From: Candidatus Poribacteria bacterium
Lineage (GTDB): Bacteria > Poribacteria > WGA-4E > UBA9662
Reading direction: 5' to 3'
Length of the DNA stretch: 48,350 nt
Assembly (NCBI GenBank): GCA_002709695.1
Contig: PAQF01000078.1
Span: 1 to 48,350 of the forward strand
Position 1 is the stretch's first letter; each line of letters starts with the position of its first letter. A program made the position numbers and the translations under genes. Below the pieces are notes generated by a model. The model had not been told where the DNA came from. It did no database searches and worked only from the letters and a program-made list of their open reading frames with translations. Positions 2,441-25,194 of this stretch are shown here, piece after piece.

Positions 2441-3310
2441 TTAGTTGACTGGGGTTGTGGCCGGGTCTCGCTTAGCATCTGCATCTTCCTGGACCCACAT
2501 TTTCCAAAGTTTAGTCTCGGGAATAGTAACATCCATCTGACGGGAAAGAACGAGATCATCAATTCCGAACAGTCGCATGAGGCGTCGATCTTTTTGTTGC
2601 TGAGCTGCTTCGATAATCTGTTGAACATTGGGGCCAGTATGTTGGTCTCGATGTGGCAGATAACTTTTATTGTAAAAACGACTCATAAAATATCGTGGCT
2701 GGCCACTTATGTTTGGTGAGGCCGCGTGAACTAAAGCTGAGTGGATAACCACAACATCACCTGCTCGAGCGTAAATGAAGTGTTCATTGGGTTGTGCTTG
2801 AAATTGATTTTGGACTAGATTTTCGGAACGGTGTGAGCCGGGTAATATCCGCAGTGGGCCAATCTTCTTATCTATATCTTGGAAATAGGTTAAGACATTG
2901 CAAGCATTTGGTGGGAGATAATCGCTAGTCCAACCAACAGGAATTGTCCACATGTCTCGGTGCCAATTTCTTGTTTCGACCTCGAGCTGTTCTGCAGCTA
3001 CTGGCTCGGTTAGGTTAATACGCAAACTTTCAAGTTGTACAAAAGGGCCCATCAATAATTCTAGAAAATCCAGAATTACTGGGTTGGTGACAGCAGGTAA
3101 CATTATCTTGGGGGCATGTTCCACCAAATTATCCATTACAATTTGCTTGCCTAGACCATATTTTGATGGTCGCTGAATTGGATCGAATTCCTGAATTAGC
3201 TGGTGAAAAGACTTTTTCCAGATATTGATTGTTTGGAGATCAATTCGCCCTTCTAGTATGGTGTACCCAGTTTGTTGGAATTGCTCCAGATATTTGTTTT
3301 CTGTTGCCAT
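2441..3310 (-). CDS. PhyH family Fe(II)/2-oxoglutarate dioxygenase (third gene of PhyH cluster)
   Basis: This 289-residue protein has the double-stranded beta-helix signature of phytanoyl-CoA dioxygenase-like enzymes: an HxD pair (H117-R-D119 in NWHRDMW), a distal His (about H195 in HSALVHAASPN) and an Arg (about R206 in GQPRYFMS) positioned to bind 2-oxoglutarate. All iron ligands are present, so it should be active as an oxygenase. The substrate cannot be read from sequence. It is cytoplasmic, with no signal peptide. It lies 30 bases downstream of a second PhyH gene and 130 bases upstream of the convergent membrane protein. The three PhyH proteins here are clearly divergent from one another, so this is not a recent tandem duplication. 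Confidence 0.9.
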   Translation of the reverse strand: MATENKYLEQFQQTGYTILEGRIDLQTINIWKKSFHQLIQEFDPIQRPSKYGLGKQIVMDNLVEHAPKIMLPAVTNPVILDFLELLMGPFVQLESLRINLTEPVAAEQLEVETRNWHRDMWTIPVGWTSDYLPPNACNVLTYFQDIDKKIGPLRILPGSHRSENLVQNQFQAQPNEHFIYARAGDVVVIHSALVHAASPNISGQPRYFMSRFYNKSYLPHRDQHTGPNVQQIIEAAQQQKDRRLMRLFGIDDLVLSRQMDVTIPETKLWKMWVQEDADAKRDPATTPVN

Positions 3311-3340
3311 AATTAGATTGTTTGGTTTGGGTGTTCTCTA

Positions 3341-4174
3341 TTATTCCCACATATCCAAGCCAAGCAATTTCTTACCCAAGGATGTGAGTTGTGCCACAGG
3401 GTGTTCTTTTTCCCACCCCCGTGGATCACCAGGGAAAGCGTTGGATGGTGGTTCTTCCCGGTTTTTCCAGAGGTTAATTCGCTGTTGACGGTAATCTTCA
3501 TTTTCCATTCTAGCAGGGCTCATGCTGATATATTGTGCTAGTCGTGGTTTGTTTGATGTGTTGTGAGCATTACCGTGTGCTAATGCTCGATGCCAGATGA
3601 GTAAGTCCCCAGCTTTACCTGAAATTGCCTTTGGTGTGAATTCTCTCAGGCTGGGAATTTCGTATTTATAATTTGGTGGGCGGTTTGCACCAAAATCTGC
3701 TAATTGGTGGTGAATACCGGGAATACATTGAAACCCTCCCTGATTCTCCTCCGTGTCAGTCAAGTATAGTACACCTTGTACACCAAAACTTAAAGGTAAC
3801 TTAGATGTATCTGCATCCCAATGAATGAAACCCTCGTTTGCATAATCAGGGTAATTTGGATGGGCTGGTGGTTTGAAACTGATGCGATCGATCGACACCC
3901 ACAGCTTTTCTGTCTCCCAAATCTCGGTGAAAATCTGATGTATTCGTGAATGCTGGCGGTTGTCCCACATTGCCTGATGGTGATACATCTCGACCATTCC
4001 ATTAGTACGAAGTGGTCTACGATACCAATCATCAGGCTTGTCATGTGTCATACCAAGAAAGTTGTACATCGCATCTATTACGGCATCAAGATTCTTCTGG
4101 GGCAAAGCCTTGGGAACAATAATGTAGCCGTTTTTTCTGAAAAAATTCCAATCGTTGTTAGAAAGTATCGCCAT
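3341..4174 (-). CDS. PhyH family Fe(II)/2-oxoglutarate dioxygenase (second gene of PhyH cluster)
   Basis: This 277-residue protein has the PhyH fold signatures: H118-W-D120 in FIHWDADTS, followed by a beta-strand region GVQGVLYLTDTEENQGGFQ, a GIH turn, and the distal iron ligand about H200 in HRALAHGNAHN, with R211 as the probable 2-oxoglutarate anchor. The N-terminus (FFRKNGYIIVPKAL) is typical of the family. The ATG start at 4174 lies 62 bases after the stop of the upstream PhyH gene on the same strand, which suggests co-transcription. The substrate is unknown; characterised relatives hydroxylate diverse small molecules, including ectoine and acyl-CoAs. It is probably cytoplasmic. Confidence 0.9.
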   Translation of the reverse strand: MAILSNNDWNFFRKNGYIIVPKALPQKNLDAVIDAMYNFLGMTHDKPDDWYRRPLRTNGMVEMYHHQAMWDNRQHSRIHQIFTEIWETEKLWVSIDRISFKPPAHPNYPDYANEGFIHWDADTSKLPLSFGVQGVLYLTDTEENQGGFQCIPGIHHQLADFGANRPPNYKYEIPSLREFTPKAISGKAGDLLIWHRALAHGNAHNTSNKPRLAQYISMSPARMENEDYRQQRINLWKNREEPPSNAFPGDPRGWEKEHPVAQLTSLGKKLLGLDMWE

Positions 4175-4236
4175 TTTGTTTGCTTTGGTATCTGTTACTT
4201 GTTTAAGTTATTGTATCATAGCATGGTGGGACATTC

Positions 4237-5106
4237 TCAAGTTGGAGAAGCATCCTGTTGTGCTAATTTTCCTTCCTGATTCCAAGCATGTCCGAAGGGG
4301 TGACCGGGGTAACGACTGGATTTAGGTAGGCGGATTACGCCTACGTCACATCGTACCCGACCCCGTTTCTCTCCGCATACTAGTAGACCTGTATCTTCCC
4401 AGACGCCGTCTGCTAGCTGATAAGAATCATCAGCACGATACTGGAAAACAACGCCGCGACGTAGTCGCCCAGAGATATTAGCGGGTGAACCATGAAGTGC
4501 CAAACAATGGTGGATGCTAATCCCCCCTGCTTTCGGTGTTACTTGTGCTATCTGAAGTTCGTCGTCCCAATATTGTGACTCTTGGCACATTCCTGTGAAG
4601 AGCCCATCCTGCATATGGTTTAGCAAGCCTAGTTTGTGGCTTCCTCGAACGACCTGCATACAGCCATTTGAGGGTGTCGAATCGTCCAGAAGTACCATCA
4701 CAGCGACCAAATCTGTATTAGTGTGTGGGAAATACGCGAAGTCTTGGTGCCAAGCAAATGGGCCTTTCCCTTTCATAGGTGGCTTTGTTGCTAGTTTAGA
4801 GTGTTGAAGCTGGATATTGGGACCGATCAGTGGTGTTATTCGTTTCAGAATACGTGGACTTTTGGCCAATTCCATGAAAATTGGATGCTTGACTGTGACC
4901 TCTAACAAATGCACTGTTTTGTTCTCATGGTCTTGTTTCTTCCACTCAGTTACTACTTCGGGCGAGTCACACGCTTCGCGAAGTAGCTCGACGTCGCTAG
5001 GAGGGAAGACATCATCAATCACAAGGTATGCTTCTTCCCAGAAGCACTGTATCTGTTCATTTGTAAGTCTTGTAACTTTTGTGTTGGGTGTGAGTAGTTG
5101 ACTCAT
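4237..5106 (-). CDS. PhyH family Fe(II)/2-oxoglutarate dioxygenase (first gene of PhyH cluster)
   Basis: This 289-residue dioxygenase has H120-Q-D122 (FAWHQDFAYFPH), the G-C-M-Q-V-V-R-G-S-H turn common in PhyH proteins, the distal ligand about H205 (CLALHGSPANISG) and an Arg-rich strand after it that would bind 2-oxoglutarate. The ATG at 5106 is preceded by AAGGAG about 12 bases upstream. It appears to head a three-gene PhyH transcript (5106 to 2441) with gaps of 62 and 30 bases. The HQD version of the motif and the preserved SH turn make it closest to the classical PhyH group. The reaction and substrate are not identifiable from sequence alone. Confidence 0.9.
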   Translation of the reverse strand: MSQLLTPNTKVTRLTNEQIQCFWEEAYLVIDDVFPPSDVELLREACDSPEVVTEWKKQDHENKTVHLLEVTVKHPIFMELAKSPRILKRITPLIGPNIQLQHSKLATKPPMKGKGPFAWHQDFAYFPHTNTDLVAVMVLLDDSTPSNGCMQVVRGSHKLGLLNHMQDGLFTGMCQESQYWDDELQIAQVTPKAGGISIHHCLALHGSPANISGRLRRGVVFQYRADDSYQLADGVWEDTGLLVCGEKRGRVRCDVGVIRLPKSSRYPGHPFGHAWNQEGKLAQQDASPT

Positions 5107-16678: not shown

Positions 16679-17398
16679 TTAATGCTTTTCTCCATCAAAG
16701 CTATATCTCGGCCAACCAAGATCCCAACCAGTCAAACCATGTGGTATGTAGTGATTTGCCAGTACATGTCGAAACGATTCTCTGTTTAGAATGGGACCAC
16801 CTCGATGTATTAGAACTCCATGGAAGAAGACGACGTCTCCTGGTGAGGCTTCAACTTCTATTTCGGGAAGATTATTCTCCTCGAATAGAAGATCAACGGC
16901 ATCATTATAGTCCAGACCATGAAAATCTCCTGCTTCTTCAAAATCATGGCGTGTGATTAAGCGATTCTTATGCGAACTAGGTTGTACATAAATTGTCCCA
17001 TTCTCAATACTAATGTCTTGGAGGGCGATCCAAGCTGATATGCAACGTGGCAAATAAAATTGATCTTGATGTCGACGTTGTTCCGATCCTTTCCAAAAGT
17101 ACATTGTTTGGATACCGTCAGCGTCTTCACCTAAACAATCGTAAAGAGGCTGGCGTAATCTCACATCTATTAACCATTCCATTGCTATTGGGTCATAAGC
17201 ATGTTGGTTGTGAGTACGCCCCCACTCATCTGCTTGTCGTAACGTAAAGCCATCTAATTTCCGCCGACCAGCGTGTAGATCCATCATATACCCGACAAAA
17301 TCATCGCATTCAGTTTGGCTGAAAAGTTCACGAAGGATAACATAACCTTTTTGATTGTAATGTTCTTTCTGGCCAAGTGTAAGTTTTTTTTTATTCAT
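16679..17398 (-). CDS. PhyH family dioxygenase, last gene of the heme operon
   Basis: A 239-residue Fe(II)/2-oxoglutarate oxygenase of the PhyH type: H110-Q-D112 (RRHQDQFYLP), distal H198 (FFHGVLIHRGG) and an Arg around residue 210 for 2-oxoglutarate. All ligands are present. It is shorter than the three PhyH proteins at 2.4-5.1 kb and belongs to a different subfamily. Its ATG overlaps the stop of hemC in an ATGA arrangement (17395-17398), so it is translationally coupled to hemC and co-expressed with tetrapyrrole synthesis. A role in modifying a tetrapyrrole or quinone intermediate is possible but unproven. It ends one base from the convergent DUF815 gene. Confidence 0.9.
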   Translation of the reverse strand: MNKKKLTLGQKEHYNQKGYVILRELFSQTECDDFVGYMMDLHAGRRKLDGFTLRQADEWGRTHNQHAYDPIAMEWLIDVRLRQPLYDCLGEDADGIQTMYFWKGSEQRRHQDQFYLPRCISAWIALQDISIENGTIYVQPSSHKNRLITRHDFEEAGDFHGLDYNDAVDLLFEENNLPEIEVEASPGDVVFFHGVLIHRGGPILNRESFRHVLANHYIPHGLTGWDLGWPRYSFDGEKH

Positions 17399-18324
17399 TG
17401 CTTCGCTCCAAATTGGATTTGCAAAATTTCTTTAGCTCCGTTTTGGATAAGTTTTTCCGCTAGTGAGAACCCGATTTCTATTGGGTTTGATGAATCGTTT
17501 ACAATCTTCTGTAGTATTCTTTTCCGCCCATCGGGGCTTGAAACTAAACCAATTACAGATAATTTTTTTCCCTCTAATTGTGCATTCACTCCAATTGGTA
17601 CTTGACATCCACCACCAAGTTCTCGTAGGACAATACGCTCTACTTCTACTTCTACTTCACTTCTCTGACAACGGATTTTTTTAAATAAAGTGTTGATCTT
17701 ATCATCATTTTCGCGGGTTTCAATTCCCAAAGCACCTTGACCTGCAGCGGGAACAATTTCATCAACTTCAAAGAATTGTGTGACATCATCTTCCCCGAAT
17801 AAACGCTTGACTCCAGCCGCGGCCAAAACGATAGCGTCTAGGTCAGTTTCTTTTAGTTTTCTCATTCGTGTGTCAATGTTGCCTCGTAGCGCTGTAACTT
17901 CAATATCGGGACGAAGGTGGAGAAGTTGCGATTTTCGTCTGAGGCTACTGGTACCAATCTTTGCTCCCATCGGGAGATTATTCAACTCTAATTTGGATCT
18001 AGAAACAAGTGCATCGCGGGGATCTTCCCGCACAGGAATACAGCAGATTTTTAGGCCTTTTGGCAAGTCAGTTGGTAAATCCTTAATACTGTGTACAGCC
18101 AAGTCAATCTGCTGATTAAGTAAGGCAATTTCAATTTCTTTTGTAAATAATCCCTTTGAAATGTTAATCAGTGAGTTCGATTGTAATTGATCTCCTGTTG
18201 TCTTGATAATAGAGAAATCGATATGGAGGTTGGCATAAGTATTAACTAAAAGTCCTCGAACATGCTCCGCTTGCCAGAGAGCAAGCTTACTGCCACGAGT
18301 GCCTATTGTTATATGGTGTCCCAC
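17395..18324 (-). CDS. hemC: Hydroxymethylbilane synthase (porphobilinogen deaminase)
   Basis: This joins four porphobilinogens into hydroxymethylbilane. The 309 residues include the N-terminal ITIGTRGSKLALWQA, the catalytic Asp region HSIKDLPTDLP, the substrate-binding Arg cluster SSLRRKSQLL and LRGNIDTRMRKL, and the dipyrromethane-cofactor Cys C240 in ELGGGCQVPIG. The start is GTG at 18324, five bases after the hemA stop. It is the fifth gene of the operon and overlaps the following PhyH gene by four bases. No hemD or hemB gene lies in the window. Confidence 0.97.
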   Translation of the reverse strand: MGHHITIGTRGSKLALWQAEHVRGLLVNTYANLHIDFSIIKTTGDQLQSNSLINISKGLFTKEIEIALLNQQIDLAVHSIKDLPTDLPKGLKICCIPVREDPRDALVSRSKLELNNLPMGAKIGTSSLRRKSQLLHLRPDIEVTALRGNIDTRMRKLKETDLDAIVLAAAGVKRLFGEDDVTQFFEVDEIVPAAGQGALGIETRENDDKINTLFKKIRCQRSEVEVEVERIVLRELGGGCQVPIGVNAQLEGKKLSVIGLVSSPDGRKRILQKIVNDSSNPIEIGFSLAEKLIQNGAKEILQIQFGAKQ

Positions 18325-18329
18325 TACAA

Positions 18330-19613
18330 CTAATCCAGCTTGTCAAATTGTTCTAGTTCAAAAAGCTCCTGTACAATTTGGATGTTCTGATCCTGATCGT
18401 TATCAGATGAGATGAAACATTGGCGTAGGTTCTTAGTTGGTTGGTGAAGAAGTCTCTTGATAATTGATTTAGTCATTGATCGTACAATTTGTTCCTGATT
18501 ATCGGAGAGGTTAGCTTTATTGACACAAACACACAATTCGCGTTCAATAATTTGATCGAAGCGTTGGTGAAGGGCTTTAATTGTGGGATCAGCTTCTAGC
18601 ATTTTAATGTATTCGTTGAAGTTAGTTGCTTCTTCTCTAACAATTCCTTCACCCGTTTTAGCGTCTTGTCTTCGTTCTTCGATATTGGATGAGATTATAT
18701 GTCGTAAATCATCAATATTATATAGGAAAGTATTTTCCACGTTGCTAATGCTTGGGTCGATATCACGTGGTACGGCAATGTCAATCATTACAATAGGCCG
18801 ATTATCGCGTTTCTTCATTATTTCTTTAAATGGCTCAATTTGAACAAGGTAATGGGGTGCAGTTGTCGAAGAGATAACAATGTCGGTCTCGATCAAAAAA
18901 TCAAGGTTGTTATCGAAAATGGTTGCTGTTCCATCAAACATTTCAGCTACACGCTCAGCCCGTTCACAGGTTCGGTTAACGACAGAAACCTTGGACGCTC
19001 CATTCTCAACTAGAGCTCGTACCGCCAATTCTCCCATTTCACCTGCACCGATAATTGTAACGGATTTGCTTTCTAAATTGGTAAAGATCTTTTTGGTTAG
19101 TTCGACTGCTACATAGCTGATTGAGACAGCTCGTGACGCAATTTGGGTCGTCGACCTTGTGCGTTTACCAACCTGAATTGCTTTTGTAAGTAGGCGATTC
19201 AGTAATTGACTGGTTGTTTCAGCTGATAAGGCTTGTTCGTATGATTCTTTGATTTGACTGAGGATCTGTGACTCGCCAATGACCATCGAATCAAGACTTG
19301 AAGCAACACGAAAGAGGTGTAAAATAGCCTTAGATCCTTCGTAATTATAGGTATATTCGTCAAACTCTCCTCTGTCGATTTGGTGTAATGCAACAAGATA
19401 ATCGGATAGAATCTCCACCTTAGCACTTGGTTTAATAACAGCATATAATTCGACACGGTTACAAGTTGACAGAATGGCAATTTCTTCGATTTGTTGATGA
19501 TGCTTTAATGTTTTCAAGGTGCTTATGAGTTCGCTGTCACTAAAAGTCAGTTTTTCCCGAAATTCAAGGGGGGCTGTATGATGACTTGTGCCAACAATGA
19601 CAATTTTGTTCAT
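18330..19613 (-). CDS. hemA: Glutamyl-tRNA reductase
   Basis: The NADPH-dependent first step of C5 tetrapyrrole synthesis: glutamyl-tRNA to glutamate-1-semialdehyde. The 427 residues are full length. The catalytic nucleophile is C51 in LSTCNRVELYAV. The signature GESQILSQIKESYEQA follows, then the NADPH-binding GAGEMGELAVRAL and the C-terminal dimerisation helices. The ATG at 19613 lies six bases after the stop of the siroheme-synthase gene. In this operon hemA is separated from hemL by two other genes. No heme-regulatory Cys-Pro motif was noticed. Confidence 0.97.
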   Translation of the reverse strand: MNKIVIVGTSHHTAPLEFREKLTFSDSELISTLKTLKHHQQIEEIAILSTCNRVELYAVIKPSAKVEILSDYLVALHQIDRGEFDEYTYNYEGSKAILHLFRVASSLDSMVIGESQILSQIKESYEQALSAETTSQLLNRLLTKAIQVGKRTRSTTQIASRAVSISYVAVELTKKIFTNLESKSVTIIGAGEMGELAVRALVENGASKVSVVNRTCERAERVAEMFDGTATIFDNNLDFLIETDIVISSTTAPHYLVQIEPFKEIMKKRDNRPIVMIDIAVPRDIDPSISNVENTFLYNIDDLRHIISSNIEERRQDAKTGEGIVREEATNFNEYIKMLEADPTIKALHQRFDQIIERELCVCVNKANLSDNQEQIVRSMTKSIIKRLLHQPTKNLRQCFISSDNDQDQNIQIVQELFELEQFDKLD

Positions 19614-19619
19614 GCTTTT

Positions 19620-20783
19620 CTAGTTGTAAGAATAAGTTTGTATTTTTTTCTGGATTTCTTTTTGTATTTGATTTGTTCTATGTGTACGTACCAAATTAAA
19701 TGTGCACTCGTTTGCGCATCCTGAATTGCTGAAATCGAAACAACATCGTTCCTTTTCACCTTTAGAGTTTTGATCAATTATGTCTTCAAAAAACTTTTTG
19801 CGTTTCGTTGTTGTTGGAATTGAGTTCATTACCTGGGGCCGCAAACTCCCCAGAAAATCAAGAAAATGGCCATAGCCCTGATTTTCGAATTGAGTTGACA
19901 AGTCTATTTGTATTTGCTTAGCATATTCCCACTCACTTTTTGAGTCTAAATTCGGAGTGATGCCGATGACTAAACCTCGATCTATAATAGCTAAGGGAGT
20001 GTAAAAAGTACCTCGCATAGGATTTCTCGTCAGCTCAACAAGTTGGGAACCACAATATTCTTGGTGCTCCACATCTGCGAAAGTAAGGAATGCAGATGAG
20101 TTCAGTTTTAGTGTGTTATCGTTCTCCATTTTAACTTTGGCACCACATTTACGCAACAGGTTGATTTTTCTCGATAATTTATTGCTTTTACCTATGGTTA
20201 TACACTGACGATTTGTTAGTAGGAACCCAATTGGATACGGAAGCTTGGAGTTGAAAGCTTGTTTTCTCCCTTCAGAAGTTTTTTCGGTGCTTTTAGGGGC
20301 TAATGGTTTCTCTGCAAAGCAGTTGATAACATCTTGGCAAAATCTTGACTCGATATATTCGCGTATACGTCTACAGACTGCAGGACTTTTGCCGCTTGTT
20401 GAAATGCTGATCGATACTTTCTCAAGTACCACAATTGAAGTCGCTGCAAAGGTACATTCTGGTACGACATCAACGACATTGACAAGGTCAATCCCATTTT
20501 TTGTATGTGCTTCCTTGAAAATACGGGTATTCGTTTGTGTAGAGTTTGTTGCAGCACATACAAGGAAAAATCCTGTGGTGTCTCCATCTTGGAATTGGCG
20601 TTTAAACCAAGATATATGGCCTTGTTGGATTAAATCGTGTAAATGTCTTGTTACTGTTGGACTTATCAGGTGAACTTCACTTCCACTACGTAATAGAGAG
20701 ATAGTTTTCCTCTCAGCAACAGTACCTGCTCCAACGACAAGGCACTTTTTGCCTTGTAAATTCAAGAATGCGGGGTAAAACAT
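19620..20783 (-). CDS. Siroheme synthase-type protein with a second degenerate CysG_N-like domain and Cys-rich tail
   Basis: A 387-residue protein. Residues 1-155 are a normal precorrin-2 dehydrogenase/ferrochelatase Rossmann domain (YPAFLNLQGKKCLVVGAGTV, catalytic D105 in NVVDVVPECTF, SISTSGKSPAV). From residue 182 the pattern restarts as YPIGFLLTNRQCITIGKSNK, with the glycines of the NAD loop lost, continues through TPLAIIDRGLVIGITPN, and only then reaches the C-terminal dimerisation segment FLDFLGSLRPQVMNSI. A tail with CC-x7-C-x3-C (C347-C360) follows. Met8p/CysG N-terminal domains are usually about 150-220 residues, so this is a tandem duplication or fusion. The ATG at 20783 is preferred over the TTG at 20786. 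It may make siroheme, or precursors for an alternative heme pathway. Confidence 0.8.
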   Translation of the reverse strand: MFYPAFLNLQGKKCLVVGAGTVAERKTISLLRSGSEVHLISPTVTRHLHDLIQQGHISWFKRQFQDGDTTGFFLVCAATNSTQTNTRIFKEAHTKNGIDLVNVVDVVPECTFAATSIVVLEKVSISISTSGKSPAVCRRIREYIESRFCQDVINCFAEKPLAPKSTEKTSEGRKQAFNSKLPYPIGFLLTNRQCITIGKSNKLSRKINLLRKCGAKVKMENDNTLKLNSSAFLTFADVEHQEYCGSQLVELTRNPMRGTFYTPLAIIDRGLVIGITPNLDSKSEWEYAKQIQIDLSTQFENQGYGHFLDFLGSLRPQVMNSIPTTTKRKKFFEDIIDQNSKGEKERCCFDFSNSGCANECTFNLVRTHRTNQIQKEIQKKIQTYSYN

Positions 20784-20821: not shown

Positions 20822-21811
20822 CTATGAGTCTCTTGATACTAGAGAGTCTCCAAGATTATTGAGAGCGACTTTAGCGTCTGTATTAGGTAACACATTCAAT
20901 GCTGCCTTTGCACGGTCTACATATTTTTGAGTAACCTTAAGGCAATATGATTTAACTCTATAAGATTCCAATAGTTGATTCATCCATTCAATTGTTTGGT
21001 CACTTGCGGGTTCTACTGTATTAAAAATGTCTTCGAGTGTTTTGCGCTCTTCTTTGGTACAGTTTTCACGCACGTAGATCATAGGAAAGGTTAGCTTACC
21101 TTCATGCAAATCTTTGAATGGTTGTTTGCCAAATTTTTCTGGGTCAGCCACAAAATCGAGCAGATCATCAATAATTTGGAACGCTATGCCAATTAATTCA
21201 CCATATTTAGTAAGAGCATTCACATGCTCAAGGTTTTTCGTACCTAAGATGGCTCCTGTATGGCATGATGCAGAAATTAGTTTGCCTGTTTTTAACTCAA
21301 CGATTTTAAGATAACTGTTTTCGCATATCTCAAAATCACCATTTTTGTAGGCATGGATCACCTCCCCTTCACACATGGCTTGAGCAGCCTTAGCTAGAAT
21401 CTCAAGAGCTGGATCGTCCGAACCACGTGAAGCTAGCATAGACAGAACTCGAGCATGAAGGTAATCACCCACCAGCACAGCAACTTTGTTACCCCACTTA
21501 GAATGAAGCGTTGCTTGGCTACGCCTAATTGGTGCATCATCAAGAACATCGTCATGGACCAATGAGGCTACGTGGATGAGTTCAATACATGCAGCTAGGA
21601 TATGAGCACCTGTTCCTGTATAGCCACATGCTTTTGACGACAGTATAAGTAGTATGGGACGAAGCCTTTTCCCACCACCTTCTATAACATGGCGTACAGC
21701 ATCATCAACGAAATCGTAGTGGATCCGTGTCTTTTCAAGCAGGATTCTTTCAATTTCTTCTAAATCATTAGCTATAATCTTCGTGATGTTATTAAAATCT
21801 AGATTCACCAT
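20822..21811 (-). CDS. Polyprenyl diphosphate synthase (trans, long-chain)
   Basis: This extends farnesyl or geranylgeranyl diphosphate with isopentenyl diphosphate to make the side chain of menaquinone or ubiquinone. The 329 residues contain the first Asp-rich motif D87-D-V-L-D91 (LVHDDVLDDAPIRR) and the second (GIAFQIIDDLLDFV), plus GGGKRLRP at residues 45-52. Small residues before the first motif suggest a long product, but the chain length cannot be fixed. The ATG at 21811 lies six bases after the hemL stop, so quinone and heme supply share a transcript. It could be named ispB or hepT depending on product. Confidence 0.94.
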   Translation of the reverse strand: MVNLDFNNITKIIANDLEEIERILLEKTRIHYDFVDDAVRHVIEGGGKRLRPILLILSSKACGYTGTGAHILAACIELIHVASLVHDDVLDDAPIRRSQATLHSKWGNKVAVLVGDYLHARVLSMLASRGSDDPALEILAKAAQAMCEGEVIHAYKNGDFEICENSYLKIVELKTGKLISASCHTGAILGTKNLEHVNALTKYGELIGIAFQIIDDLLDFVADPEKFGKQPFKDLHEGKLTFPMIYVRENCTKEERKTLEDIFNTVEPASDQTIEWMNQLLESYRVKSYCLKVTQKYVDRAKAALNVLPNTDAKVALNNLGDSLVSRDS

Positions 21812-21817
21812 AGATTA

Positions 21818-23104
21818 TTACAGGTTCGAAAAAACATGGTCTATTGCGCGAATAGTATTCTCCACGTCTTCTTCGGTGTGAGCAAGGGACACAAAACCCG
21901 CCTCAAATTGTGAAGGCGCTATATAAATACCTTGGTCTAATAGTCCCCAAAAGTATTTGGAAAACTTTTCTGTATCAGACGTTTTCGCTGTTTCATAGTC
22001 AATTACTTCTTGATCAGTAAAGAAACAAATTATCATGGAGCCAACGCGATTATGGAAGGACGAAATATTATGCTTCTTAGCTGAATGTTTTATACCATCA
22101 GAGAGTGTGTTTGAAGTTTCTTCAAGTTTGGCATATGTACTAGGTTGTGAGAGCTCTTTTAGTGTTGCAATTCCAGCTGCCATGGCTAGTGGGTTTCCAG
22201 ACAGAGTTCCTGCTTGATAAACGTCACCGATTGGTGAAACACACTGCATTATTTCTTTTCTTCCACCATATGCTCCTACAGGCAAACCCCCACCAATTAT
22301 CTTTCCGAAGCAGGTAAGATCTGCGTCAACGCCGTATATTTCCTGTGCTCCGCCATAAGCAACACGGAACCCAGTCATGACTTCATCAAATATCAAAACA
22401 ATACCGTGTTCAGTAGTAACCCTGCGGAGTTCATTTAGATAACCATCCTTGGGTGGAATCACTCCCATGTTTCCAGCAACCGGCTCTAAAATCAGGCAAG
22501 CGATCTGATCTGGGTGTGCTTCAATTACTTGATGAACCGCATTAATATCATTGAAAGGGACTGTTAATGTATGTTGGGCAAACTCTTTTGGCACACCTCC
22601 ACTATCAGGTAGTCCGAAAGTTGTTAGTCCCGAGCCAGCCTTTACAAGCAAATAGTCAACATGACCATGATAGCATCCTTCAATTTTTATGACCTTGTTA
22701 CGTTTTGTATATCCACGTGCAAGTCGAATTGCCGTCATCGTTGCTTCCGTGCCGGAATTGACCATTCTAATTTGATCGACAGACTTCACCGCTGAGGTAA
22801 CGATGTCTGCTAATTCAACTTCCAATTCAGTTGGAGCGCCGAAACTCGTACCATTTTGCATGACTTCTGAAATTGCCGATAATACCATCGAGTTAGCGTG
22901 TCCTAAAAGCAAAGGACCCCAGGAACCTACATAATCAATATACTGGTTGTCGTCGATATCGTATATTTTTGAGCCTTGAGCATGTTTGATGAAAATGGGG
23001 GTTCCACCAACGGATTTAAAGGCCCGAACTGGACTGTTTACACCGCCAGGGATTAACCTTTGTGCCCTTTCCCATGTTTGTAATGATCGCAGTTTTTTTG
23101 CCAC
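21818..23104 (-). CDS. hemL: Glutamate-1-semialdehyde 2,1-aminomutase
   Basis: This PLP enzyme converts glutamate-1-semialdehyde to 5-aminolevulinate. The 428 residues include [15 protein letters not shown] near the N-terminus, the [18 protein letters not shown] cofactor region, [13 protein letters not shown] and the PLP lysine K268 in [17 protein letters not shown]. The start is GTG at 23104, with a GAAGAGAG element upstream and a promoter about 75 bases upstream. It heads a six-gene minus-strand operon: hemL, polyprenyl synthase, siroheme synthase-like, hemA, hemC, PhyH. The order hemA-hemC is common; the aminomutase plus prenyl synthase at the front is less so. Confidence 0.97.
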
Positions 23105-23337: not shown

Positions 23338-23415
23338 AAGTTTTGACGTTGTTTTTCTCCTAAACCCCAGAGCAATTTGAACGACTATTTCGGTGCTTTA
23401 CTTAAGGACTTTTTC

Positions 23416-25194
23416 ATGAAAAGAATGGTGTCTTCAGTATCACTCACTTTAGGATTACTTATGGTTATAGGAATCATCTGTGCTTGGTCGGTGCCCATTA
23501 TGGTAATCACTGGTCAAGTGCAAGATAGTGATGGCACTCTCCTTGAAAATGTAGAGGTGATCATCAAAAATACTAACAAGGTAACAGAGAACTCTCAACG
23601 TACGCTTGCGGGTGATGAAGCTGGGACATTCGATTTCACTTTGATAGATTTTACAAACCAAAGCGTTGCTGATACAGGGGAAAAACTTGAAGTCATTGTA
23701 AAGCAAGATGGTGGAGAGATTATTGCCAGAAAGATTCACGTTCTGACGCAAGATGAGGTTGACAGCTCATTGGCTATCATACATGTTCAAATTAAGGAGG
23801 GACCATCGGTTTCATCAATTGAACCATCAACTGATATTATTGATGGGGGGATGACTGTCGCTATCACAGGGAATGAGTTTCAGAATGGAGTGTCAGCTAA
23901 TATTGGTGGGAATGCTATGATAGATGTGACTTTTGTGTCTAAAACCTCCTTAACCGCCATTGTTCCTGCTGGAATGTTAGGTGTTACGGATTTGGTCGTC
24001 AGTAATCCAGATGGTCGCTCAGCAAAGTTGCCTCAAAGTTTCGTTTATACATCGCTTGCGCCTGTTGTTAAAGCGATTAACCCAATGCTTGGTGTTACGG
24101 TTGGTTACACTTCAGCTACAATCACCGGTGAAAATTTTCAGGAAGGCGCAACCGTGAGTTTCGGCGGCACGGAGGCCAAAAGGGTCGTTTTCGTTTCAAT
24201 GACGGAGTTGATTGCGGAGGTCCCCGCACGGGAAGCAGGGGATGTGATAATTCAAGTAACTAATCCTGACAACCAATTTTCTACGCAGTTAATTTCCTTC
24301 ATGTATATTCTTCCTGCTCCAACTATTTCAAGTCTCTTTCCTAATAGTGATAAAATTTCTGGAGGAGAAACAATCATTATTTCCGGTGAAAACTTTCAAA
24401 ATGGAGCGAATGTAAGCTTTGGCCAGATTGATGGAATCGATGTATCTTTCGTTTCCTCAAGAGAGATAGCCGTTATCGTTCCAAGAGTTGAAAAAGCTGG
24501 TACTATCAATATAACGGTGAAGAACCCCGATGATCAATCAACATCAAGCGAATTTACGTATAAAGAGCCAAGAAAACGGCTTATTTGGGATATCGATCAA
24601 AATGAGATTGTTGACATTTTTGATCTTGTAATCGTGGCAAGTCAATTCGGGAAAAAAGGCGAAAACTTAACTGGCGATGTCGACAAAAATTATGTAGTTG
24701 ACATCTTTGATCTCGTACAAGTTGCTAGTAACTTTGGTGCAAAAACAGGTGCATCTGCGGCTCCACTAATGCGAAGCAATCGAACAGCTTGCTTACGCAA
24801 TGCACTAACCGAAATGGAAGTGTGGGGCAAGACAAATCCCAACATTATCTTTGTAACCAAGTTATTAAAGGGTTGGATGATTGATGATGGGAGTATTCCG
24901 AGGGTTACAAAACTATTGCCAAATTATCCCAATCCGTTTAATCCTGAAACATGGATTCCATTCCAAATTTCGGATGCGTCAATCGTTAAGCTTTCCATCT
25001 TTGATGTTAAAGGACATCAGATACGCCAAATCGAAGTTGGATACCTTCAAGCAGGAAACTATATTAATAAATCGGATGCGATTTATTGGGATGGTCGAAA
25101 TCAAATTGGAGAACTTGTGCCTAGTGGTGTTTATTTCTATGTGCTGCAAATCGATAATTTCTCGGCGCAGCGAAAGATGATAGTTTTGAAATAA
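23416..25194 (+). CDS. Secreted TIG/IPT-repeat protein with dockerin-like segment and T9SS-like C-terminus
   Basis: A 592-residue exported protein. I start at the ATG at 23416, with AAGGA (23404-23408) seven bases upstream, which gives a hydrophobic leader (LTLGLLMVIGIICAW). Order: carboxypeptidase-regulatory-like beta domain (about 30-125), three IPT/TIG repeats (about 130-215, 216-305, 306-392; each with a G-x-N/E-F-Q-x-G-A/V core), a dockerin-like pair of Ca2+ loops (DIDQNEIVDIFDL and DVDKNYVVDIFDL, about 400-450), and a C-terminal FlgD/por-sorting-like beta domain opening NYPNPFNPETWIPF and ending FSAQRKMIVLK. It is probably cell-surface or secreted and may bind polysaccharide or protein. 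The C-terminal signature is a strong pointer to Poribacteria. Confidence 0.9.
   Translation: MKRMVSSVSLTLGLLMVIGIICAWSVPIMVITGQVQDSDGTLLENVEVIIKNTNKVTENSQRTLAGDEAGTFDFTLIDFTNQSVADTGEKLEVIVKQDGGEIIARKIHVLTQDEVDSSLAIIHVQIKEGPSVSSIEPSTDIIDGGMTVAITGNEFQNGVSANIGGNAMIDVTFVSKTSLTAIVPAGMLGVTDLVVSNPDGRSAKLPQSFVYTSLAPVVKAINPMLGVTVGYTSATITGENFQEGATVSFGGTEAKRVVFVSMTELIAEVPAREAGDVIIQVTNPDNQFSTQLISFMYILPAPTISSLFPNSDKISGGETIIISGENFQNGANVSFGQIDGIDVSFVSSREIAVIVPRVEKAGTINITVKNPDDQSTSSEFTYKEPRKRLIWDIDQNEIVDIFDLVIVASQFGKKGENLTGDVDKNYVVDIFDLVQVASNFGAKTGASAAPLMRSNRTACLRNALTEMEVWGKTNPNIIFVTKLLKGWMIDDGSIPRVTKLLPNYPNPFNPETWIPFQISDASIVKLSIFDVKGHQIRQIEVGYLQAGNYINKSDAIYWDGRNQIGELVPSGVYFYVLQIDNFSAQRKMIVLK

Follow-up and report, generated by a model that had tools for sequence, protein, structure and literature searches.

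A tandem SirC/CysG-B-like protein with a degenerate second Rossmann domain and a cysteine insert in one order of Poribacteria

The window, meaning the whole 48,350-nucleotide stretch of Poribacteria DNA analysed here, contains a run of tetrapyrrole genes in which the gene of interest lies between a polyprenyl synthetase gene and hemA. The assignment of the class-III aminotransferase as hemL is based on its position in this cluster. The genes of the run are as follows:

21818..23104, minus strand: class-III aminotransferase (PF00202), probably hemL (glutamate-1-semialdehyde aminotransferase)
20822..21811, minus strand: polyprenyl synthetase, adjoining the tandem SirC gene in the window and in L115
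19620..20783, minus strand: whole ORF of the tandem SirC/CysG-B-like siroheme synthase (ATG at 20783, stop codon at 19620-19622, 387 amino acids)
18330..19613, minus strand: hemA, glutamyl-tRNA reductase (PF05201/PF00745), directly downstream of the tandem SirC gene
17395..18324, minus strand: hemC, hydroxymethylbilane synthase (PF01379/PF03900)

The MFYP start is common to the relatives in an alignment of 66 full-length members, with MYYP in one, and the nearest GTDB relative among the matches listed is 70% identical to the window protein. The cluster varies somewhat within the order. In L115 (6001-11874), the tandem SirC gene and hemA are separated by a cytochrome c assembly (CcsA-like) gene, and a SUMT-HemD fusion comes after hemC. 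The window cluster (17395-20783) includes neither of these, and a SUMT-type gene is present on contig C26. Elsewhere in the 48 kb there are four phytanoyl-CoA dioxygenase (PhyH) family genes, three of them consecutive (2441-5106 and 16679-17398), and a 605-residue ORF (23377-25194) in which repeated IPT/TIG-like segments, a dockerin-like repeat (DIDQNEIVDIFDLVIVASQFG) and a sorting-like C-terminal end can be made out by eye.

Domain architecture of the 387-residue protein

The initial annotation of this ORF described a protein that starts as a normal precorrin-2 dehydrogenase, with a GAGTV nucleotide-binding loop (residues 18-22) and D105, and profile searches agree. NAD_binding_7 (PF13241) matches residues 6-113 with 99.4 bits against a cut-off of 22.1 (E 2e-28), and the NCBIfam model TIGR01470 matches the window protein with 137.8 bits (cut-off 62.3). 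Sirohm_synth_M (PF14824) falls slightly below its cut-off of 25 on residues 124-146 (24.9 bits), and CysG_dimeriser (PF10414) is found on residues 303-337 (26.4 bits, cut-off 23, E 6e-6). Pfam detects nothing trustworthy in residues 150-300, and the second Rossmann domain is seen only by profile-profile comparison. Neither the TP_methylase domain of SUMT (PF00590) nor a CbiX-type chelatase domain (PF01903) is matched by Pfam in the window protein; the SUMT-type genes are separate. The following segments are distinguished:

20445..20783, minus strand: R1, residues 1-113, intact NAD(P)-binding Rossmann domain (PF13241, E 2e-28; CysG superposition)
20469..20471, minus strand: D105, the equivalent of CysG D104 (D in 66/66)
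20334..20444, minus strand: d1, residues 114-150, first dimerisation segment (tetrapyrrole loop T129-G131-S133-P134 and R138/R141)
20244..20333, minus strand: linker, residues 151-180, site of the missing first-copy helical domain
19998..20243, minus strand: R2, residues 181-262, degenerate second Rossmann domain (NAD glycines lost; profile comparison and models)
19878..19997, minus strand: d2, residues 263-302, second dimerisation segment (STSGxSP loop lost)
19770..19877, minus strand: h, residues 303-338, sole helical domain (PF10414; CysG alignment)
19695..19751, minus strand: cysteine insert, residues 345-363, CC-x7-C-x3-C-x2-N (conserved 66/66 and 61/61)
19623..19694, minus strand: C-terminal helical hairpin, residues 364-387, homologous to the end of canonical SirC

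The annotation also proposed that the protein restarts at residue 182 with a copy that has lost the NAD glycines, and that a dimerisation helix follows only after this second domain. The restart (LPYPIGFLLTNRQCITIG, residues 181-198) is confirmed by aligning family profiles with hhalign, in which residues 178-304 match residues 1-152 with a score of 80 (E 2.7e-13). Forty column-shuffled controls gave a mean of 13 and a maximum of 29, and a reversed control gave 15, so the internal repeat is not due to chance. The order of the parts also stands, with the helical domain coming last, but the extent of the second copy needed revision. Residues 178-340 align end to end, over 160 columns, with an independent set of canonical SirC proteins from other phyla (99.8%, E 3.7e-28). 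On this sequence evidence, the second part is therefore an entire SirC unit (Rossmann, dimerisation and helical parts) in which the Rossmann part has decayed. It is the first copy that is incomplete, ending after its dimerisation segment without a helical part.

The chain thus comprises two Rossmann-dimerisation segments and one helical domain, breaking the family norm of one unit per chain, and the protein is treated here as a variant architecture of the SirC/CysG-B/Met8p family and not as a canonical member. Residues 303-387 are also recognizable in canonical SirC (hhalign 95.8%, E 7e-9), relative to which the stretch of roughly 20 residues that separates the helical domain from the C-terminal hairpin is an insert. 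The predicted cysteine tail is present in this insert as C347, C348, C356 and C360.

The Rossmann fold implied for residues 182-310 is recovered in structure predictions, where residues 182-302 form a reduced alpha/beta (Rossmann-like) domain in AlphaFold2 models of the window protein (pLDDT 86.0, pTM 0.83, with low confidence in the linker at 151-169) and of the protein from a second species, L083 (pLDDT 89.1, pTM 0.86), although these two models were built on the same sequence set and are not fully independent. Foldseek gives a good match for R1-d1 only, which superposes on CysG at 1.6-1.8 A over about 142 columns; longer CysG alignments, with an rmsd of 14-20 A, are uninformative about the packing. 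The pTM values, reached despite the weakly predicted linker of the window model, indicate that the two halves are placed together with confidence, since halves placed independently would be expected to lower them considerably. The models suggest an intramolecular version of the domain-swapped pairing of CysG.

Distribution and origin of the second unit

Of the 73 genomes in one Poribacteria order, 70 carry the tandem architecture. In seven class-mates that lie outside it, the matches are of the R1 type only; they fall in frames of 205-241 amino acids, apart from one (L070, from G074) that belongs to a fusion of SirC with glutamyl-tRNA reductase (HemA) in a single frame. Scanning the GTDB species genomes with a single protein as the query gave no matches, and loci were obtained with an alignment-based scan. 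Among the best 80 loci, those that could be translated outside Poribacteria are single units of 188-220 amino acids, and the tandem form was not found there. Because the scan relied on first-unit peptides, it would miss forms that lack them, and a further 29 weaker loci fall outside the best 80. The cysteines are invariant in 66/66 members of the full-length alignment, which was used for all invariance counts, and the CC-x7-C-x3-C motif is present in 61/61 GTDB r220 loci, as would be expected of a tail that is conserved in close relatives. The most divergent member (L066, from G002) has about 37-40% identity, with K26 replaced by arginine and C76 lost.

These sequence comparisons, together with the GTDB scan, bear out the suggestion that the layout differs from those of Met8p, CysG and SirC, and the tandem layout is a new architecture within a known enzyme family. 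The CysG-B part of Salmonella CysG (PDB 1PJQ and ligand-bound entries) has the same Rossmann, dimerisation and helical parts. However, each CysG chain contains a single Rossmann domain and a fused SUMT, and the homodimer has two equivalent sites, whereas the tandem protein has two Rossmann domains (one of them dead), one helical domain, a Cys4 insert and no SUMT. Yeast Met8p (PDB 1KYQ) is likewise a stand-alone dehydrogenase/chelatase without SUMT, and the tandem protein is predicted to share its bifunctionality, but Met8p is a single unit that forms a homodimer and lacks the Cys4 insert, and its sequence match is weak and limited to residues 67-150. The best PDB sequence match (E 2e-15 over residues 2-150) is SirC of Bacillus megaterium (PDB 3DFZ), a single unit of about 200 amino acids that is monofunctional and has a serine at the D104 position (PMC7018833). 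The literature searches returned nothing relevant on siroheme or heme biosynthesis in Poribacteria or on tandem precorrin-2 dehydrogenases.

In a tree, the first copies form one group and the second copies another, each fully supported, and the first copies join the SirC proteins of two class-mates with support of 88/82. As far as the sequences allow, this grouping fits one duplication before the radiation of the order. The exact origin of the second copy is unsure due to its long branch. Across 24 species pairs, median dN/dS is lowest in R1-d1 (0.08) and the helical domain (0.09) and higher in R2-d2 (0.24) and the tail (0.18); these are simple Nei-Gojobori estimates, and the tail value is noisy because the tail is short. 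At the protein level the rate of evolution of R2 is about three times that of R1, and R2-d2 has invariant residues at Y183, P184, C194, L209, L210, F232, E250, T262 and P263.

Active-site residues and the chelatase question

Residues were mapped using the CysG alignment and the published CysG ligands (PMC7018833). In R1, G18, G20, N102 and D105 are invariant among the 66 members, and D105 corresponds to CysG D104, which mutants have shown to be required for both the dehydrogenase and the chelatase activities of CysG (PMC7018833). R1-d1 preserves CysG N101 (as N102), D104, G130 (G131), P133 (P134) and R140 (R141) in 66/66 members, and the equivalents of K27 (K26) and R137 (R138) in 65/66 and 64/66, respectively. 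The position of CysG S128 is T129 in 66/66. In the helical domain, G312, R315 and R328 (CysG G159, R162 and R175) are invariant in 66/66; CysG K166 is replaced by leucine or methionine, CysG W179 by phenylalanine, and the CysG DAPK loop is altered to DVVPE. Neither the nucleotide-binding glycines nor the STSGxSP loop survives in the second unit, whose D104-equivalent position is variable, with aspartate in 44/66 and arginine in the window protein. The catalytic residues are thus split between the first Rossmann unit and the final helical domain, on either side of a dead domain.

Gene content, checked family by family, bears on whether this protein also inserts iron. The siroheme reductase family (PF01077) is present in 29/30 genomes of the order (the exception, G002, which is also the source of the most divergent tandem protein, is an assembly 80% complete). 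Two TP_methylases per genome were detected in 29/30, namely a SUMT form of about 505-564 amino acids, which in L115 is the SUMT-HemD fusion, and a short one that is presumably RsmI. With only these two, there is no sign of corrin-ring synthesis in the order. The CbiX ferrochelatase is found in 0/73 order genomes, a weak match in G023 having been rejected as falling in a HemH-like ORF, and CbiK in 0/19 order genomes tested. B. megaterium SirC works with SirB, whereas this order is without SirB. By comparison, CbiX or CbiK is present in 6/7 class-mates with plain or HemA-fused SirC, and the seventh assembly is 79% complete. Four of these class-mates (G073, G077, G083 and G084) have no more than two TP_methylases alongside siroheme reductase-family proteins, and consequently their CbiX is probably the siroheme chelatase.

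Given that siroheme reductases and SUMT are present in the order and that CbiX is not, unlike in the class-mates, the genome sequences indicate that the tandem protein is probably a sirohydrochlorin ferrochelatase as well. D105 is kept in 66/66 members, as in bifunctional enzymes, and the aligned residue is histidine or serine in two of four class-mate SirC proteins. However, D105 alone is no proof of chelatase activity, since the aspartate is also kept in several canonical SirC proteins. The main alternative is HemH, which occurs in 18/19 order genomes and 1/10 class-mates and could conceivably act on sirohydrochlorin.

A single-chain reading, its alternatives and the cysteine insert

In the CysG dimer the chains swap domains, each Rossmann domain facing the helical domain of the partner chain, and R162 and R175 are ligands (PMC7018833). 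The reading favored here, held with some but by no means full confidence, is that the tandem protein is a bifunctional precorrin-2 dehydrogenase/sirohydrochlorin ferrochelatase in which fusion has turned such a domain-swapped homodimer into a single asymmetric chain. The two dimerisation segments would pair within the chain in the manner of two CysG chains. This would bring the helical domain of unit 2 over R1, the only competent Rossmann domain, to give one composite site per chain, and R2, left without a helical partner, would persist as a scaffold for the pairing. R1 would oxidise precorrin-2 with NAD+, and the same R1 site would insert Fe2+ into sirohydrochlorin, using D105. A symmetric two-site enzyme thus appears to have turned into an asymmetric one-site enzyme. 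Intrachain pairing accounts in one step for a first unit without a helical domain and a second unit without catalytic function, and the low dN/dS of R1-d1 and the helical domain relative to R2-d2 indicates that constraint follows the proposed site. The chelatase assignment is independent of the second copy, given that Met8p and CysG are bifunctional without one.

A simpler enzyme is also conceivable, namely a monofunctional SirC-like precorrin-2 dehydrogenase in which R2 is an inert remnant of a partial duplication, with iron inserted by HemH or by an unrecognised chelatase. Dehydrogenase-only SirC proteins exist (PMC7242693), and both the near-universal HemH of the order and the threefold faster protein-level evolution of R2 are compatible with this. 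However, R2 has persisted in 70/73 genomes, is under purifying selection (dN/dS 0.24) and includes invariant residues; the invariance of D105 and the coincidence of CbiX/CbiK loss with the tandem form also count against this explanation, making it unlikely. It is decidedly unlikely that two tandem chains instead form a two-site intermolecular dimer, in which the R1-d1 part of each pairs with d2-h of its partner and which the fusion changes little. The CysG family is dimeric (PMC7018833) and the linker length permits either arrangement, but the confident single-chain AlphaFold2 arrangement (pTM 0.83 and 0.86) is unexpected for such independently placed halves. R2 might alternatively have been recruited as an allosteric domain that binds a ligand, for example a tetrapyrrole or metal signal, and regulates R1. 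Its fold is kept in both models, its invariant residues include E250, which aligns with the tetrapyrrole-binding N102, and the gene lies beside hemL, hemA and hemC, where flux control is plausible; against this, the nucleotide and tetrapyrrole loops are lost, no new conserved pocket is obvious in the sequence and a scaffold role needs fewer assumptions, so that an allosteric R2 seems improbable. Finally, an assembly artefact or pseudogene, for which no supporting point was found, can be dismissed given the same open frame in 66 genomes, complete chromosomes included, and low dN/dS throughout.

If the single-chain pseudo-heterodimer is correct, each half-site could be mutated alone, as the two are separate segments of one chain, which would test whether one site suffices. 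CysG crystals have substrate in only one of the two sites, and the mechanism by which iron is selected and inserted by CysG and Met8p is described as unclear (PMC7018833). The protein would also be a clean example of a homodimer that became a pseudo-heterodimer by fusion, one of its subunits being dead, and the change could be dated to the base of a single bacterial order.

The cysteine insert follows the helical half of the proposed site in sequence, and judging from the motif it is plausible that it binds a metal or an Fe-S cluster, as the initial annotation suggested; which metal is a guess at the sequence level. C348-x7-C356-x3-C360, with the adjacent C347, fits the pattern CX(1,11)CX(1,11)C, as a pattern match and not as homology. 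This pattern is used to find [2Fe-2S] ferrochelatases, and an adjacent cysteine pair is typical of their insertion type (PMC8529089). The cysteine spacing, CC pair included, matches that of the [2Fe-2S] ferrochelatases HemH/PpfC/CpfC (PMC8529089), although these have an unrelated (class II chelatase) fold. Plant SirB, also a sirohydrochlorin ferrochelatase, holds a [2Fe-2S] cluster that is maybe regulatory (PMC6006212), but it has a CbiX-type fold and no dehydrogenase. The pattern, the plant SirB cluster and a CC insert in HemH of the order together favor an Fe-S site over a purely structural one. The insert would accordingly carry a putative [2Fe-2S] cluster, or less likely Zn2+, in a structural or an iron- or redox-sensing role. 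No cluster was found for class III (SirC/CysG-type) chelatases in the literature searched, and if the four cysteines hold one, this would place an Fe-S site in that chelatase class. The other conserved cysteines (14, 76, 110, 194 and 213) were left out of the metal site, several having counterparts in canonical SirC.

More tentatively, and with greater doubt than attaches to the fused chain itself, the order may use a class III ferrochelatase that is a one-site, single-chain pseudo-heterodimer with an Fe-S cluster, its HemH being likewise under Fe-S (iron/redox) control.

HemH of the order was compared in 13 sequences (L168-L174, L176-L179, L151 at 1474-2415 on the minus strand, and L165 at 1360-2322). 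All have a CC-xn-C-xn-C insert, with an invariant CC pair and two further cysteines after the first strand, near the N-terminus (GGPTPGCC...CPGEA.CFVE), and the gap is longer in G002. In known [2Fe-2S] ferrochelatases the motifs are placed in an internal insertion or in a C-terminal tail (PMC8529089). HemH of the class-mate G075 has no CC insert within the stretch compared.
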